From a virus: a DNA stretch of 22,040 nt. Positions 2,000-10,517 of the stretch are shown here, piece after piece (the first letter of the stretch is position 1; each line of letters begins with the position of its first letter). The translations under genes were made by a program, and so were the position numbers. The notes below the pieces were generated by a model that was given only the letters and a program-made list of their open reading frames with translations, was not told the DNA's origin and made no database searches. The stretch spans positions 1-22,040 of the IMG/VR virus record IMGVR_UViG_3300033553_000174, one strand, 5' to 3'.

Positions 2000-2394
2000 T
2001 TTTTTTCGGCGGGATCCTCCGCGCCCGCGCCGGTAAGGGCACGGCTCGCAGGCGGCGAGATAATGGCGAGAATTGAGGTGATGATATCGTGCGATTGGCG
2101 CACTTTTTCCTCGCCGGATTTGTTCGCCAGATCCTCCTGGATGCTCAGATAAATCTCGGCATCCGTCACCTCTGCCCCGGCGTAGCGCAGCGCCGCCCCG
2201 AGCGTGAAGGCCAGGCGCGTCGCGGGAACACCGCCCCGGCGAAACAGAACTTGCAGCGGCGGCTCATGCTCACCCGTCGCCAGATTGAGCGAAAGGTGAT
2301 GCTCGACCTTGGCGACCAGCATCATCAGCTTTGCGGCTGGCACGGTATAATCCGCGCCAGCCCAAGAAAGCGTCACGTCCTCGAAGCCGTGCAT
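1939..2394 (-). CDS. Tail assembly chaperone (lambda gpG-like, zero-frame product)
   Basis: This 151-aa protein lies between the major tail protein and the tape measure, the conserved slot for tail assembly chaperones, which coat the tape measure during tail building. The ATG at 2394 overlaps the major tail stop by one base (TAATG), so that start is preferred to one five codons upstream. Residues 1-110 look folded (starts MHGFEDVTLSWAGADYTVP). The last 40 residues are basic, low-complexity Lys/Arg/Ser/Ala, as expected when the biologically important C-terminal part is read in another frame. The sequence resembles gene-transfer-agent-family tail chaperones. A slippery A-AAA-AAG lies at codons 131-132. 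Confidence 0.75.
   Translation of the reverse strand: MHGFEDVTLSWAGADYTVPAAKLMMLVAKVEHHLSLNLATGEHEPPLQVLFRRGGVPATRLAFTLGAALRYAGAEVTDAEIYLSIQEDLANKSGEEKVRQSHDIITSILAIISPPASRALTGAGAEDPAEKKARRAGSSKRSTRQRSGKNG
1999..2005 (-). promoter_or_regulatory. Programmed -1 ribosomal slippery heptamer A-AAA-AAG
   Basis: Read on the minus strand in the chaperone frame, the codons are GAA AAA AAG, giving an exact A-AAA-AAG heptamer within a run of seven A. This is the sequence used by E. coli dnaX for -1 slippage. A -1 slip here enters the 58-codon frame that carries the conserved tail-chaperone motif. The sequence just downstream (GGCCCGGCGGGCGGG) is very GC-rich and could supply a stimulatory structure. 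Confidence 0.7.
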
Positions 2395-2792
2395 TATGCG
2401 ACGGCCCAAGTGCCCGAGGAGGTGAACGACGCCGAGAATGTCGCGGCCTCTTTATAGTCGTTGCCCTCTTTATAATTGAGCATGAAAAAATTTCCGCTCA
2501 CCGTTGCCGACCCGACGCCGCCATCGGCAAAGGCAAATGTCAGATCCGTTAGGAGCTGGCTTGTCGCGGGATCCATTGCGATATCGCGCAGGATTGGATC
2601 CTTATAAACGCCCTCGATATCAAACGTCATCACGCCGAGGCCGTAATCGGCGAGCAATTCTTGCAGGCCCGCGCTGTCATTGTCGGTGACATCGATCGGC
2701 GTGTAATCGACTTGAATATTCGTGACGCGCACGCCGCCGATCAGAACGGCGTTTTTCTTGAGTGTGGCCAGGCGGCCGGCTGCTTTTGCCAT
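2394..2792 (-). CDS. Major tail protein (TP901-1 / Phage_tail_2 type)
   Basis: This 132-aa protein would form the tail tube. Its sequence (AVLIGGVRVTNIQVDYTPID near the N-terminus, DLTFAFADGGVGSATVSGNF in the middle, TFSASFTSSGTW at the end) has the beta-rich pattern and C-terminal SxxFxSSG of TP901-1-type major tail proteins. The start at 2792 (MAKAAG) is chosen because GGAG lies 9 nt upstream; the in-frame ATG at 2807 has no ribosome site and itself forms part of the ATGGAG leader element. Length is typical for the family. It is preceded by a leader also found before the major capsid gene, which fits its expected high expression. Confidence 0.85.
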   Translation of the reverse strand: MAKAAGRLATLKKNAVLIGGVRVTNIQVDYTPIDVTDNDSAGLQELLADYGLGVMTFDIEGVYKDPILRDIAMDPATSQLLTDLTFAFADGGVGSATVSGNFFMLNYKEGNDYKEAATFSASFTSSGTWAVA

Positions 2793-2801
2793 TTTGAAAG
2801 G

Positions 2802-2873
2802 CTCCATTTATTAGGGAAACGCACCGCCATGCAGCGGACCGTCCAAGCGCTTGCCCAAGGCGCAGGAAGGGCA
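2802..2873 (-). repeat. Leader repeat copy A, upstream of major tail gene
   Basis: This ~72-bp segment upstream of the major tail protein matches a 68-bp segment upstream of the major capsid gene (6120-6187). Shared blocks in order on the minus strand are TGCCCTT, GCC(C)TTGGGCAAG, TGGAC, CGCnGCATGGCG, GCGT, CCC and ATGGAG, the last serving as the ribosome site. The other ORFs in the late operon nearly touch; only these two genes have such a leader. A CGC...GCG stem around GCAT is conserved in both copies, which suggests a role in the RNA. Confidence 0.7.
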
Positions 2874-2883
2874 GACGCCGCCG

Positions 2884-3282
2884 CTAGGCCGCGTTTTCGA
2901 TAAGCCCGCGATATTCGCAGACCCCATGAAACGATCCATCTGACACCTTATCCACAAAGGATGCCTCGCGATCGATCTGGATAAAATTGTAGCCGGTGAC
3001 AGCCAGCGCGCCGCGATGCAGGCGATCATAAATCTGGCCCTGGATCAGCTTGGCCTCTTGCATGCTGCCCGATCGGCTGCGCGTGTGAAGGCGCGCGACA
3101 AAATCAAAACCGCGCTCGCTATTCGTATCGAACTCAGCCAGCACCACCGCCCCGACCTCGACATAAGGAAACACGGCAGCGTTGCCGCCGTCCGCCGCTT
3201 GCGGCGCGGCATCATAGACGCGCAAGCCGAGCGGCGTCAGCGCATTATAAAGTGCTACCTGCACCGCCCATTCACCGCTCAT
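2884..3282 (-). CDS. Tail terminator / completion protein (DUF3168 family)
   Basis: This 132-aa protein begins MSGEWAVQVALYNAL and contains FPYVEVGAVVLAEFDTNSER, followed by ARLHTRSRSGSMQEAKLIQGQ. This is the DUF3168 pattern: an N-terminal helix, then P-Y-V-x-(I/V)-G, then the H-x-(W/R)-S-R strand-helix. Members cap the finished tail tube and join it to the head. The ATG overlaps the stop of the upstream gp10-like gene by ATGA, so the two are translationally coupled. It lies just before the major tail protein, its usual place. Motif, length and position all agree. Confidence 0.85.
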   Translation of the reverse strand: MSGEWAVQVALYNALTPLGLRVYDAAPQAADGGNAAVFPYVEVGAVVLAEFDTNSERGFDFVARLHTRSRSGSMQEAKLIQGQIYDRLHRGALAVTGYNFIQIDREASFVDKVSDGSFHGVCEYRGLIENAA

Positions 3283-3680
3283 AAAACCACCCTCTTGCGC
3301 TCGCGCGCCAGCCGCGCCTCTAGCTTTTTAACGAACGCCTCTAGATAAAGGCGGTCCATATCGGATCGCATTGCCTGGAGCGCCTTGAGCATAAAGGCAT
3401 GCTCGACCCCATCCGGCCCGTCTCCATATTCCAGATATCGCCAATAGAACGCCGCGATCCGAACGCTGCTTTCCAAATGGTCGCGATCGCCGCGCTCGCG
3501 CTTTGCCTTGATGCCTTTTCTCAGATCACCGTCCGCAGTCGGCGCATTGCCCTTGCCCGATTTGGCCAACTGGCCCGCGACATCCTGGACCGTCGCGCGC
3601 ATGAGGTTTTTCGCCTCGCGCGGCGCGATCGCCCCGAGCACGCGGTTTATGTCCGCGATGCCCTCGATATCCATTTTCAT
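3279..3680 (-). CDS. HK97 gp10-like neck / tail-joining protein
   Basis: This 133-aa protein has the HK97-gp10 pattern: an N-terminal helix with IADINRVLGAIAPREAKNLM, a small-residue segment GNAPTADGDLRKGIKAKRER with the P-x-x-x-G-x-L core of the family, then AFYWRYLEYG (the usual aromatic strand ending in G) and a C-terminal helix rich in Arg and Lys. The family sits in the neck between head and tail. It overlaps both neighbours by ATGA (stop of the head closure gene at 3677 and start of the tail terminator at 3282), so it belongs to a coupled run of connector genes. A short start (M3) is possible. Confidence 0.83.
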   Translation of the reverse strand: MKMDIEGIADINRVLGAIAPREAKNLMRATVQDVAGQLAKSGKGNAPTADGDLRKGIKAKRERGDRDHLESSVRIAAFYWRYLEYGDGPDGVEHAFMLKALQAMRSDMDRLYLEAFVKKLEARLARERKRVVL

Positions 3681-3994
3681 TGCGCGACGCCCCGCTCGGC
3701 CTCGATCACCAGGCGCAGATCCCGCCCGCCCTCGCGGCGAATGCCTTGGATATTATAAGCGACGCCATCCCAAATAATCCGATCCGTTTCAGTCAGATCC
3801 GCGCGATTATAGATTGTGAACAGCACAACAAAGGCCGCGCTTGTCCGGCCTTCATCCATAGCCTCGCGCCCGGCCTTGGCCTTGACGCTGGCCCATACGC
3901 GCGGATCGATCGGCAAAGGTGCCCAAGTATAGACCTCGCCGCCGCCGCCGTCCGCCGTTGCCGCCTTGCGCTCCAGGGCGATCGGCTGATCCAT
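3677..3994 (-). CDS. Head closure / head-tail joining protein (Phage_H_T_join type)
   Basis: This 105-aa protein starts MDQPIALERKAATADGGGGE, the common beginning of head-tail joining proteins (basic strand, then a Gly-rich D/G loop, then a W and an A-x-V/I strand, here RVWASVKAKAGREAMDEGR). It ends with a strand pair containing IIWDGVAYNIQGIRREGGRD. Members plug the connector after DNA packaging. The start at 3994 is chosen because AAGG lies 8 nt upstream and the conserved fold begins there; an ATG at 4012 would add six residues and overlaps nothing. The stop overlaps the next ATG by ATGA. Confidence 0.82.
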   Translation of the reverse strand: MDQPIALERKAATADGGGGEVYTWAPLPIDPRVWASVKAKAGREAMDEGRTSAAFVVLFTIYNRADLTETDRIIWDGVAYNIQGIRREGGRDLRLVIEAERGVAQ

Positions 3995-4004
3995 CGCGCC
4001 CGCC

Positions 4005-4565
4005 TTACCCATACCAGCCGGTCCGATGCAGGCCCAGAAGGTATTCAAGGGCTCGCGGAATCTCCTTTACCGCGCTTTCACTGGTGGCCTCGCGGTTTTC
4101 ATACCAGTGCCCCACCATCATTTTCAGCGCGTGAATGATGCCCGGCGGCGTATCATCCGACCCTACATCATATTGAAGGATCACGGCATCGGGCCGATCA
4201 TATGTTGCGGGCCAGGCATCGGACCGCACAAAGGCCCAATCCTCCGAGGCGTAAAACTCGAAATCGCCCAGATCCGCAGACTGCAAGACATTGGCCGCGT
4301 CGTAATAGTCGACGCTCACCAAAGCCTGCGCAGGCGGCACACTTAGATAAGTGTCGCGCGTCGGATATTGCAGCGCCTCGCGCATTGTTTGCGGCGCGAT
4401 CGCCCGCCCAAGCTCGCCCGATACACTGGCGACGGCGGCATCGATCAAGCCCTGGATCTGCCGATCCTCCATCGTGTGAGTGACGCGCAGATGCTCTTTC
4501 ATTTCCGCCAGGGACACCGGCGAGGCACTTGCAGCAACCGCGACAGAGACAATGCGCCCGCGCAT
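4005..4565 (-). CDS. Head-tail connector protein (gp6-like, Phage_connect_1 type)
   Basis: This 186-aa protein has near its start SPVSLAEMKEHLRVTHTMED, the strong signature of HK97 gp6-like connectors (P-V-(S/T)-L-x-x-x-K-x-H-L-R-V), followed by a helix ending in GRAIAPQTM. The C-terminal part has PPGIIHALKMMVGHWYENRE, another family landmark. Members form the ring under the portal. The ATG at 4565 shares one base with the stop of the preceding small gene (TGATG); a GTG at 4568 would add one residue. It is followed after about 10 nt by the head closure gene. Confidence 0.86.
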   Translation of the reverse strand: MRGRIVSVAVAASASPVSLAEMKEHLRVTHTMEDRQIQGLIDAAVASVSGELGRAIAPQTMREALQYPTRDTYLSVPPAQALVSVDYYDAANVLQSADLGDFEFYASEDWAFVRSDAWPATYDRPDAVILQYDVGSDDTPPGIIHALKMMVGHWYENREATSESAVKEIPRALEYLLGLHRTGWYG

Positions 4566-4750
4566 CACTTGGCCGCCTTTTCCGCCTTGGCGGCAGGGAC
4601 GGCTTTCTCGGCAGACTTACCGCTGCGCACAAGCTCGGCCTGCTCGGCAGCGATCATGCGCTCGCCCTCGGCGGCGGTCACCTCGATTATATCGCCCCGG
4701 TTTTCACCGCCCGCCAACGTGGCGCGCGCCATCAATAGTTTCACTTTCAT
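4565..4750 (-). CDS. Small protein between capsid and connector genes
   Basis: This 61-aa protein starts MKVKLLMARATLAGGENRGD, preceded by a strong GGAGG site 8 nt upstream; the in-frame ATG at 4765 is rejected because it lies on top of that site. The first ~45 residues look like a compact alpha/beta fold with the pattern of small phage head proteins (basic strand, G-x-x-x-x-G-D-x-I/V-E-V, then E-A-E-x-x-I-x-A-x-x-A-E). The tail is a Lys/Ala-rich low-complexity helix ending KAEKAAK. Its function is not known to me. A head-decoration or completion role is a guess from its position after the major capsid gene. Confidence 0.7.
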   Translation of the reverse strand: MKVKLLMARATLAGGENRGDIIEVTAAEGERMIAAEQAELVRSGKSAEKAVPAAKAEKAAK

Positions 4751-4776
4751 TTTATAGTCCTCCATCGCGTTAGTGA

Positions 4777-4799
4777 GGCGGCGAGATACCCCCGCCGCC
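4777..4799 (-). other. GC-rich hairpin downstream of the major capsid gene
   Basis: A six-base inverted repeat (GGCGGC ... GCCGCC, 11-nt loop) lies between the capsid stop and the next gene. There is no run of U after it, so it is not a standard terminator. It could act as an RNA stability or attenuation element that separates the high capsid expression from that of the connector genes. Such a short GC stem can occur by chance in DNA of this composition. Confidence 0.35.
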
Positions 4800-4829
4800 C
4801 TGCTAGCCCGACGTTGCCGCCGTGCCGGT

Positions 4830-6110
4830 TTAGGCCGTGATCAGATGCTTGACTGCGCCAGCATCGGCCAGCTCACCATCGAAACGGATATACCCGGCGA
4901 TACCGAAGCCTGGCCAAAAGTCCTTATCCTGGATGGCCCCGATCAGAGGCTGGCCAACCTTGCGAACGAAATACTTGCCGAAGTCACCGAACAGCATAAC
5001 CTTTTTGCCGGTCGCCAGGCTGTCCATCGCCTGATTGATCGAATAAGGGCGGCCATTGAACGTGCCGGGAATGCCCGCCTGGACATTGCCCATCTGCCAC
5101 AGATAGTTGCCGTCGCCATCTTTCAACTTGCGCAGCGCCTTGAGCGTTGTGTCGTTGAACATATAGCGCACTTTCGGCCCCATGCGATAAGCAGGATCGA
5201 CCGAATGCTCCAGATCGATGACCTCATCCCAAGTGATCGCCGCGAGCGCAACGGCAGTTGTGCCAAGCGTCGATGCCGTCACAATACCATTTGGATCGCC
5301 AACGCCGTCGCCGACTGTCAGCTCCAGGTTAGCTTTGCGCCCAAGCCGCTCGCCGAGCAGATCGCCCAGGATTTTCTCCATTGCAAAAATGGAATCGTCG
5401 GCCAGCTCTTTCGACACCCGCAGCCATTCCGTATTAAATGCATACGCATTCAGCACTTTCTCGCCAAAGACCGCATCGGATCCGCCGTCATCCGTCAACG
5501 TGACGCCCTCTGCCGTCTTGACCGCAGGCTTACCCGTGTCATCGATCGTTGGCATCGGGATAGACCCGCCGCCGACTGTCTCAAGCTCCGTCACGATGTC
5601 GGGATCATACATCGGACCCCAGGCCAGCATCGACTTGACCAGGATATTTGCCAGCTCAGTCGGGACGGTATAGCCGCCCGCCGCCGCAGTTGTGGTTTGC
5701 GCGCGATGCTCGACCGCCTCGAAACCCGCCTCTAGCAGTGCGCGGGCCTCGGGATCCATATCGCCCTTGACGCCTTGCGAGCGCAGATAAGCCTGGAATG
5801 CCGTCCGATAATCCAAGGCGCCGCCGCCTTTGGATGCCGAACCAGTATCACTGCCAGGGCGGCGCGATTCGCGCTGGCGGCGTTCCTCGGCCTCGGCAGC
5901 CTGGGCGCCGCGCTGCTCGATTTCTTCCATTTTGGCCAGGCGTTCCGCCTTGGCGGCCAGGCCATCATATTCGGCCATGGCGCTATCGTGCTGCGTCTCC
6001 AGCTCAGTCGCGCGGGCGGCGTCCGTTTCGGCAGACGCTTGATCGAGAAGGGAGCGGGCGTTAGTGGCGGCAGTCGCCATCTGTTCCCGCAGGTTTTTGA
6101 GATCGACCAT
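4830..6110 (-). CDS. Major capsid protein, HK97 fold
   Basis: This 426-aa protein is the shell subunit. Residues 1 to about 95 form a charged coiled coil (delta or scaffold domain) that the prohead protease is expected to remove; it ends in a Ser/Gly-rich linker (GSDTGSASKGGG). The mature part carries family landmarks: TTTAAAGGYTVPTELANILV at its N-terminus, the E-loop/P-domain segment SIPMPTIDDTGKPAVKTAEG, FNTEWLRVSKELADDS (spine helix start), a GDGVGDPNGI loop and near the end MLFGDFGKYFVRKVGQPLI. The start at 6110 is chosen for the GGAG 9 nt upstream. It follows the protease gene and a leader also seen before the major tail gene. Confidence 0.95.
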   Translation of the reverse strand: MVDLKNLREQMATAATNARSLLDQASAETDAARATELETQHDSAMAEYDGLAAKAERLAKMEEIEQRGAQAAEAEERRQRESRRPGSDTGSASKGGGALDYRTAFQAYLRSQGVKGDMDPEARALLEAGFEAVEHRAQTTTAAAGGYTVPTELANILVKSMLAWGPMYDPDIVTELETVGGGSIPMPTIDDTGKPAVKTAEGVTLTDDGGSDAVFGEKVLNAYAFNTEWLRVSKELADDSIFAMEKILGDLLGERLGRKANLELTVGDGVGDPNGIVTASTLGTTAVALAAITWDEVIDLEHSVDPAYRMGPKVRYMFNDTTLKALRKLKDGDGNYLWQMGNVQAGIPGTFNGRPYSINQAMDSLATGKKVMLFGDFGKYFVRKVGQPLIGAIQDKDFWPGFGIAGYIRFDGELADAGAVKHLITA

Positions 6111-6119
6111 ATATATGGA

Positions 6120-6187
6120 CTCCATCTAAAGGGACGCGACGCCATGCGGCGCGCGGTCCAGACCTTGCCCAAGGGCCGAAAAGGGCA
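6120..6187 (-). repeat. Leader repeat copy B, upstream of major capsid gene
   Basis: This 68-bp copy matches the leader at 2802-2873. Blocks conserved between the copies are TGCCCTT, CTTGGGCAAG, TGGAC, GCATGGCG and ATGGAG, with small gaps between. In this copy CGCC-GCAT-GGCG can form a perfect four-base stem and GGTC-TG-GACC another weak one. An AT-rich stretch (ATATAT) separates the ribosome site from the start codon. A promoter, an RNA-protection stem-loop or a translation enhancer are all possible; no good -10/-35 pair was seen. Confidence 0.7.
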
Positions 6188-6190
6188 TTC

Positions 6191-6207
6191 AACTGCGGAA
6201 AGCAGTT
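6191..6207 (-). other. Hairpin between protease and capsid genes
   Basis: AACTGC-TTTCC-GCAGTT is a perfect six-base stem with a 5-nt loop that begins at the protease stop codon. It lies just before leader repeat B. Minus-strand sequence after it (GAATGCCCTTTTC) has only a weak U tract, so it may be a partial terminator or a 5' end stabiliser for a processed capsid message. The hairpin is not present before leader repeat A. Confidence 0.4.
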
Positions 6208-10256: not shown

Positions 10257-10517
10257 CAGACACCCCCCCCCCTAAACTAATACGCGAATAAATCAGGCTA
10301 CCCTCACCGGTCCCTGGCGATTTGCCTTTTAGAGATCTACCCACCCCCTGCCCGCTCAGATTGTCACCATCTGCATGCAAGAAATGATTTCACACCGCGC
10401 CAGGCCTGCCGATCGGCCTGGCCCTTGGGCTGCGCCATGGCTTGCGCCTTAAATTGCTGGCGCATATCCTACGATTTTTGCGGCACGGTGCCGTTTCACT
10501 TGCAAAGGATTGAACCC
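10257..10517. other. 261-bp intergenic region between terminase and lipoprotein genes
   Basis: No gene is seen here. It separates divergent genes (small terminase on minus, lipoprotein on plus). It contains the G10 tract, an inverted repeat at 10400-10421 (CCAGGCC, 8-nt loop, GGCCTGG) and, right after it, GGCCCTTGGGC, the same 11 bases found in leader repeat B. A weak plus-strand promoter candidate is TTGCGC, 17 nt, TATCCT near 10442-10470. The region could hold a packaging (cos/pac) site because it flanks the small terminase, but nothing in it shows that directly. Confidence 0.45.
10263..10272 (-). promoter_or_regulatory. Homopolymer tract (G10 on coding strand) 6 nt before small terminase
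   Basis: Ten consecutive C on the plus strand (G10 on the coding strand) lie 6 nt upstream of the small terminase ATG, where a ribosome site should be. Poly-G tracts of this length are prone to slippage in replication and could vary translation of the terminase genes. No other homopolymer of this length was noticed in the window. It may also be where an assembly has miscounted. Confidence 0.5.

Follow-up and report, generated by a model that had tools for sequence, protein, structure and literature searches.

The late genes of a virus, IMG/VR record IMGVR_UViG_3300033553_000174, were analyzed over positions 1 to 22,040 of the record, and this whole stretch of 22,040 nucleotides (nt) is referred to as the window. 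The minus strand of the window is a late operon, in which PHROGs identified genes for TerL, portal, protease, major capsid protein (MCP), connectors, tail terminator, and major tail protein (MTP). The MCP and MTP genes are each preceded by a copy of the same leader, and the RNA structure of this leader element is well supported by the comparison of related sequences.

The MCP gene occupies positions 4830-6110 (minus strand; phrog_10) and the MTP gene positions 2394-2792 (minus strand; phrog_1407), in agreement with the capsid and major tail identities given to them in the original prediction. Both genes were re-started, at 6110 and 2792, respectively. The starts chosen by the open reading frame (ORF) finder, 6125 for MCP and 2807 for MTP, are in-frame ATGs within the ATGGAG Shine-Dalgarno region, and the starts that agree with relatives lie 15 nt downstream, also in frame. 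The start codons are probably the ATGs at 6108-6110 (MCP) and 2790-2792 (MTP), and the annotations of relatives likely contain similar mis-starts inside the Shine-Dalgarno block. The ATGGAG blocks, at 6120-6125 (minus) for MCP and 2802-2807 (minus) for MTP, stand at the end of the alignment of the covariance model (CM) described below, and relatives of the MCP leader have AAGGAGCC or ATGGAGGCC there. The ribosome site that had been proposed as shared by the two leaders is this Shine-Dalgarno region.

The leaders of the two genes could be aligned over about 70 nt on the minus strand, including the sequence blocks named in the original prediction. Their local alignment scored 42, compared to 27 for the best of 300 random segments of the window. 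A CM built from 30 leaders, both window copies among them, found the MCP leader at 6110-6189 (minus) with 68 bits and the MTP leader at 2792-2875 (minus) with 64 bits, and the proposal of one leader common to both genes was, thus, borne out. An 11-mer at 10420-10430 (plus strand) that had been put forward as a possible third copy was found not to be one; it reads GGCCCTTGGGCTG, has neither the conserved GGGCAA nor a partner for the stem S2 described below, and no further CM site was found in the remainder of the window, where the next best score was 10.7 bits with filters off. Long leaders had also been thought to be confined to the two most abundant structural genes. This was refuted by another long gap in the operon, of 64 nt at 4766-4829 (minus), between the MCP stop (4830) and a small ORF at 4565-4765. 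This gap has a GGCGGCG...CGCCGCC hairpin and a GGAGG site of its own, and showed no match to the leader element.

Anatomy and covariation of the leader element

From 5' to 3', the family consists of a hairpin of free sequence (H1), a core of 21 nt, an optional hairpin with a GNRA-like loop (H3), the Shine-Dalgarno sequence, and the AUG. The conserved pairings of the core, GCCY-L1-NNNN-CUU-XGGC-AA-N'N'N'N', describe a small pseudoknot, in which GCCY and XGGC are the strands of stem S1 and the two complementary sets of four bases are those of stem S2. The family core rule is GCCY-L1(3-8)-NNNN-NNU-XGGC-A(A/G/C)-N'N'N'N' with S2 fully complementary. In the leaders of MCP relatives, H1 starts within the stop codon of the preceding gene and is followed by GCC(C/T), 3-8 nt (L1, which varies in both sequence and length), four bases, CUU, GGGC, AA, and the complementary four bases. 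In many of them H3 follows the core, for example as ACGCU-GUGA-AGCGU, and then UCCC and AAGGAGCC or AUGGAGGCC. The letters outside the stems, C-Y-U and AA, are nearly invariant. The modules are separable, as some leaders have the core without H3 and others have H3 without the core, and the distance from the core to the start is bimodal, being about 16-27 nt without H3 or 44-54 nt with it.

Both window copies follow the core rule and lie directly 5' of a high-copy virion gene. In the MCP leader, H1 is seen in the sequence as the hairpin AACTGC-TTTCC-GCAGTT at 6191-6207 (minus), its 5' arm starting in the TAA stop of the protease gene. The core, likely a pseudoknot, spans 6161-6186 (minus) and is made up of the 5' strand of S1, GCCC (6183-6186), L1 TTTTC, the 5' strand of S2, GGCC (6174-6177), CTT, the 3' strand of S1, GGGC (6167-6170), AA, and the 3' strand of S2, GGTC (6161-6164). 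The H3 module at 6131-6160 (minus), drawn from the minimum-energy fold and from the covariation of H3 in relatives, has the hairpin GCGCC-GCAT-GGCGT (6139-6152) within an outer GGAC...GTCC stem, followed by UCCC. In the MTP leader, the core, again likely a pseudoknot, spans 2847-2872 (minus) and has, in the same order, GCCC (2869-2872), L1 TTCCT, GCGC (2860-2863), CTT, GGGC (2853-2856), AA, and GCGC (2847-2850). Its H3 module at 2814-2846 (minus) has CCGCT-GCAT-GGCGG (2824-2837) within an outer GGACG...CGTTTCC stem, then UCCC. The loop of H3 is GCAU in both window copies, and in other leaders it is GUGA or GCGA (the usual loops) or GGAU. The conserved stem predicted around GCAT, thus, exists as H3, but the GCAT loop itself is not conserved, GUGA being usual, and the main core, the CUUGGGCAAG region, had gone unrecognized. 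A search of IMG/VR with the pattern GGAC...GCATGG returned 15 chance matches, which made it clear that the conserved feature is not the GCAT loop of the window.

The evidence that the leader is an RNA element comes from its pairings in relatives. S2 was fully complementary in 135 of the 145 distinct leader cores (3 of the 145 being chance matches), compared to a mean of 68 and a maximum of 87 under permutation, and the pairing had not been imposed. Likewise, S2 was complementary in all 108 listed search-pattern matches before virion genes, with a pattern that permitted 16 combinations. The types of S2 include GCGC/GCGC, GGCC/GGCC, GACC/GGUC, GCAC/GUGC, GGAC/GUCC, GCGG/CCGC, and GCCG/CGGC. When the pseudoknot pairs were counted in distinct cores with L1 removed, 94.9% were paired, with 39 double-change cells compared to 12.2 in shuffles (0/500), and a count of S2 and H3 together gave 96.2% paired compared to 22-45% with slid partners. 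H3 covaries as ACGCU/AGCGU, GCGUC/GACGC, CCGCU/AGCGG, and UCGCU/AGCGA. H1, defined as a perfect hairpin of at least 5 bp ending 0-5 nt before S1, was present in 89% of MCP and 68% of MTP leaders, compared to 20% of shuffled controls, and its sequences are unrelated between the two kinds of leader. All of these pairing counts treat related sequences as independent, so their exact significance is overstated, and the variety of pair types is a stronger argument for RNA than the significance values are. The covariation of the stems in relatives agrees with the proposal of an RNA element.

Covariation of this kind is not expected of a promoter. Action at the level of transcription, as a promoter, pause, anti-termination, or attenuation element, would be an alternative to a function in the mRNA, and terminator-like hairpins with T-runs do stand directly before MCP in four core-less relatives (L028, L041, L053, L089). 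In another locus (L104, minus strand ~2446-2528 in reverse-complement coordinates), the core and a terminator-like hairpin with T6 are found together before a tail gene. However, neither window leader has an intrinsic terminator (a GC stem with a U-tract) or a T-run after its stems, and promoter-like sites occur in the window at the level of chance (2 compared to 1.8 expected), none of them inside a leader. We, therefore, consider a transcriptional element very unlikely.

S1 is less certain than S2. The GGGC strand, which is part of the S2 loop, can pair with the GCCC upstream. GCC, which was not required in the count of 145 cores, stands 3-9 nt upstream of all S2-paired leader cores except two (L099 and L059), and L059 is probably a chance match. 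In the free set of pattern matches listed, the fourth pair was U.G in 27, C-G in 23, U-A in 4, A-U in 3, and G-C in 1. Several observations weigh against the stem. The GGC strand of S1 was fixed by the search pattern, so its constancy is no evidence, and S1 is bridged by AA alone, two nt, which is tight for a classical H-type pseudoknot; alternating S1 and S2 hairpins are, therefore, possible. Exceptions to the fourth pair were also found, namely GCCC...AGGC in one leader (L384, C.A), GCCC...CGGC in one distinct leader (L391/L396, C.C), and GCCU...CGGC. Because 16 of the 22 matches to the last in a directed scan were real leaders, the claim for the fourth pair was lowered, and S1 is best described as three apparently constant G-C pairs and a fourth that is mostly paired. 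Overall, we think that the pseudoknot of the core probably forms, and we infer that both of its stems would form simultaneously. The leader with the C.A mismatch lies on the same contig as another (L361), the two standing before neighboring phrog_290-like tail genes, each with a core; their S1 strands are GCCT/AGGC (L361) and GCCC/AGGC (L384).

Genes and hosts that carry the leader

Relatives were sampled as 80 MCP-relative loci in IMG/VR, and the CM was searched against 712 kb consisting of the window, the MCP loci, and four named phages. This gave 73 matches, and the 71 outside the window were 48 before MCP, 22 before MTP, and 1 before a gene at a contig end, the leader of a tail gene that was cut off. 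Both copies, before MCP and before MTP, were present in 19 loci. The covariance search in relatives had been set beforehand as the test of conservation, and it found the leader kept before MCP and MTP in many of them. Near the genes for portal, TerL, protease, and connectors there were 81 core-like matches, none of which had GCC and a paired S2.

When IMG/VR was scanned gene-blind for exact matches to just the core (GCCCN{4,8}GSSCCTTGGGCAAGSSC), at least 120 stretches were found, compared to a single match for a scrambled core with TTC for CTT. Among the matches listed, all but about six (L107, L115, L120, L121, L148, L149) precede a start codon, nearly always accompanied by a Shine-Dalgarno sequence, and one (L160) ends at the contig edge. 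The genes behind these listed matches belong to MCP families phrogs 10, 29 (lambda-E type), 264, and 1005, to tail families phrogs 1407/13196, 158, 807, and 290, to the tail sheath family phrog_23, and to the scaffold-annotated phrog_3927. Weaker or H3-type CM matches on the same contigs stand before MCP phrog_247 (L206) and the scaffold-annotated phrog_673 (L113). The families served are unrelated in sequence, yet all are high-copy virion or assembly proteins. On one contig of 90.9 kb, IMGVR_UViG_3300005532_000006 (L113, L201), a sheath-like gene, an MCP gene, and a small scaffold/decoration-like gene are each preceded by a full or partial copy, and in the MCP copy the core is followed by a second H3-like hairpin.

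A position at gene boundaries and before unrelated genes might also be expected of a DNA linker or recombination boundary that was copied from one phage module to another and has no function as RNA. Such a linker is at odds with the compensatory changes in S2 and H3, with an orientation that is fixed relative to the start codon, and with the presence of the element before high-copy genes only, and we regard it as highly improbable.

Most strong matches in a GTDB scan were in alphaproteobacteria. They came from Rhodobacteraceae, Euryhalocaulis, Methylovirgula, Acetobacteraceae, Hansschlegelia, Ruegeria, and Rubritepida, with weaker matches in Xanthobacter, Methylobacterium, and Tritonibacter. 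Cultured strains with the element include Xanthobacter autotrophicus DSM 432 (L330), Euryhalocaulis caribicus (L251), and Tritonibacter scottomollicae (L323). A strong match (57 bits) in a metagenome-assembled genome binned as Chloroflexia (L322) is possibly a stray phage contig. When the CM was run on 289 genomes of the class of Euryhalocaulis, a single new strong match came up, of 48.5 bits, before a tail gene, and in 274 genomes of the class of Achromobacter no match exceeded 28 bits, which was taken as the genome-wide noise floor. Among deposited phages, Pseudanabaena phage Pan4 and Microcystis phages Mae-JY02 and Mel-JY03 have the element before the major tail gene. Two records of phages recorded as infecting cyanobacteria, ON968455 (L334) and PP395635 (L335), have the leader together with tail genes like those of gene transfer agents, and their recorded hosts may deserve a check.

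Proposed function of the leader

We favor, with moderate confidence, the interpretation that these sequences are a family of structured 5' leader RNAs in alphaproteobacterial phages, cis-acting and portable, that would raise or insulate the expression of high-copy virion genes. The restriction to high-copy genes, the independence of the protein encoded, the fixed orientation and spacing relative to the start, and the frequent double use in one operon all point to an expression leader acting in cis. Within the polycistronic late mRNA, the leader is placed exclusively in front of genes that encode proteins required by the hundreds, and it most likely acts in cis, whatever gene it serves. Its stacked structure could separate the start region from the coding RNA and the ribosomes upstream and keep the Shine-Dalgarno sequence accessible for frequent, independent initiation, and/or the downstream segment of the mRNA could be protected from decay. 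As a result, capsid, tail-tube, sheath, and scaffold proteins would outrun the proteins of the same operon that are needed in one to dozens of copies. The rise in expression is inferred from sequence comparison, and it may come about at initiation, at mRNA decay, or through a bound factor.

Some considerations tell against this interpretation. Structure ahead of a start codon can lower expression just as it can raise it. Also, Rhizobium phage 16-3, RHph_Y3_1, RHph_TM3_3_14B, and Labrenzia phage V1 are close relatives with the same gene order that do without the element, and gene-order relatives of this kind have other structured leaders or none, so the leader is replaceable. Upstream of MCP in three Rhizobium phages (L218, L219, L220), the same place is taken by a different structured leader, with arms GGCAGGACG... 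and ...CGAGTCCTGCC around CCGGC/GCCGG, which suggests that other families of analogous leaders exist.

Another possible explanation is that the leader is a translational operator, with a phage or host protein binding the core to repress or time capsid and tail synthesis. The near-invariant C-Y-U and AA outside the stems are what one would look for in a binding site, the Shine-Dalgarno sequence could be hidden by a weak UCCC...GGA pairing, and the T4 gene 32 leader is a precedent for a phage pseudoknot operator (PMC3014915). However, the proteins encoded downstream belong to several families of MCP, tail, sheath, and scaffold proteins with no sequence relationship, making simple self-regulation by the product unlikely. 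Core-only leaders leave about 16-27 nt to the start with the Shine-Dalgarno sequence open, and no candidate regulator gene turned up, none having been searched for. We judge a regulated leader to be unlikely.

A site of RNA processing or stability would be one specific form of the expression leader that we favor, and these possibilities overlap. An endonuclease would cut near H1 or L1, and the core would shield the new 5' end or stop an exonuclease that works 5'-3', such as RNase J, so that MCP and MTP would each have a stable mRNA of their own. With H1 ending one gene and the core leading into the next, the arrangement is reminiscent of the flanks of a cleavage site, and processing would account for the position inside operons and for the independence of the gene served. 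On the other hand, no cleavage motif was identified, and L1 is variable at 3-8 nt; we hold processing to be possible, if on the doubtful side. Somewhat more tentatively, the core of the expression leader could be a portable module whose pseudoknot stops host RNases or attracts a host factor in alphaproteobacteria, and which phages have repeatedly moved to high-copy virion genes to set stoichiometry within one late transcript.

How hundreds of capsid and tail-tube subunits but few portals are made from one late operon is an old question that has usually been answered case by case. With one recognizable RNA as a mark of high-copy virion genes in unrelated phages, this question becomes directly testable. 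Such a mark also allows high-copy structural genes to be predicted from sequence in phages that lack annotation, and the leader could provide an expression part for alphaproteobacteria.

Comparison with known leaders

None of the 4227 models of Rfam release 15 matched the leaders of the window, 9 MCP relatives, or 7 diverse carriers, even at E values of up to 1-5, and the open-access literature yielded no account of the element. The likeness to the cis-regulatory and phage RNA families of Rfam is that of a short, structured RNA in 5' leaders. The leader of T7 gene 10 supports very high synthesis of the major capsid protein, and it is likened to the present family by description alone; it is not known as a conserved pseudoknot family or to be shared with tail genes. 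GNRA tetraloop hairpins near start codons resemble H3, the loop of which is usually GUGA or GCGA, but H3 is not present in every leader and is accompanied by a fixed UCCC ahead of the Shine-Dalgarno sequence, and the loops in the window are GCAU.

A close parallel in form is the gene 32 leader of T4, T2, and RB69, a 5' leader of a phage mRNA with an H-type pseudoknot before the start codon (PMC3014915, PMC535899). The T4 operator is, according to a review, possibly the sole viral pseudoknot used in translational autoregulation (PMC3014915). The A+U-rich UUAA(A) repeats that lie between pseudoknot and ribosome site in the gene 32 type are not present in the leader family, where this region is H3 and UCCC or a short linker. 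Loop lengths and sequence also differ, and the hosts of the leader family are mostly alphaproteobacteria. T4 gene 32 has a single operator bound by its own product, whereas the core of the present family is shared by many unrelated virion genes, frequently by two in the same genome. A structured, cis-acting mRNA leader is, as a kind, already known; what seems to be new is this particular family and the way it is reused ahead of high-copy virion genes.

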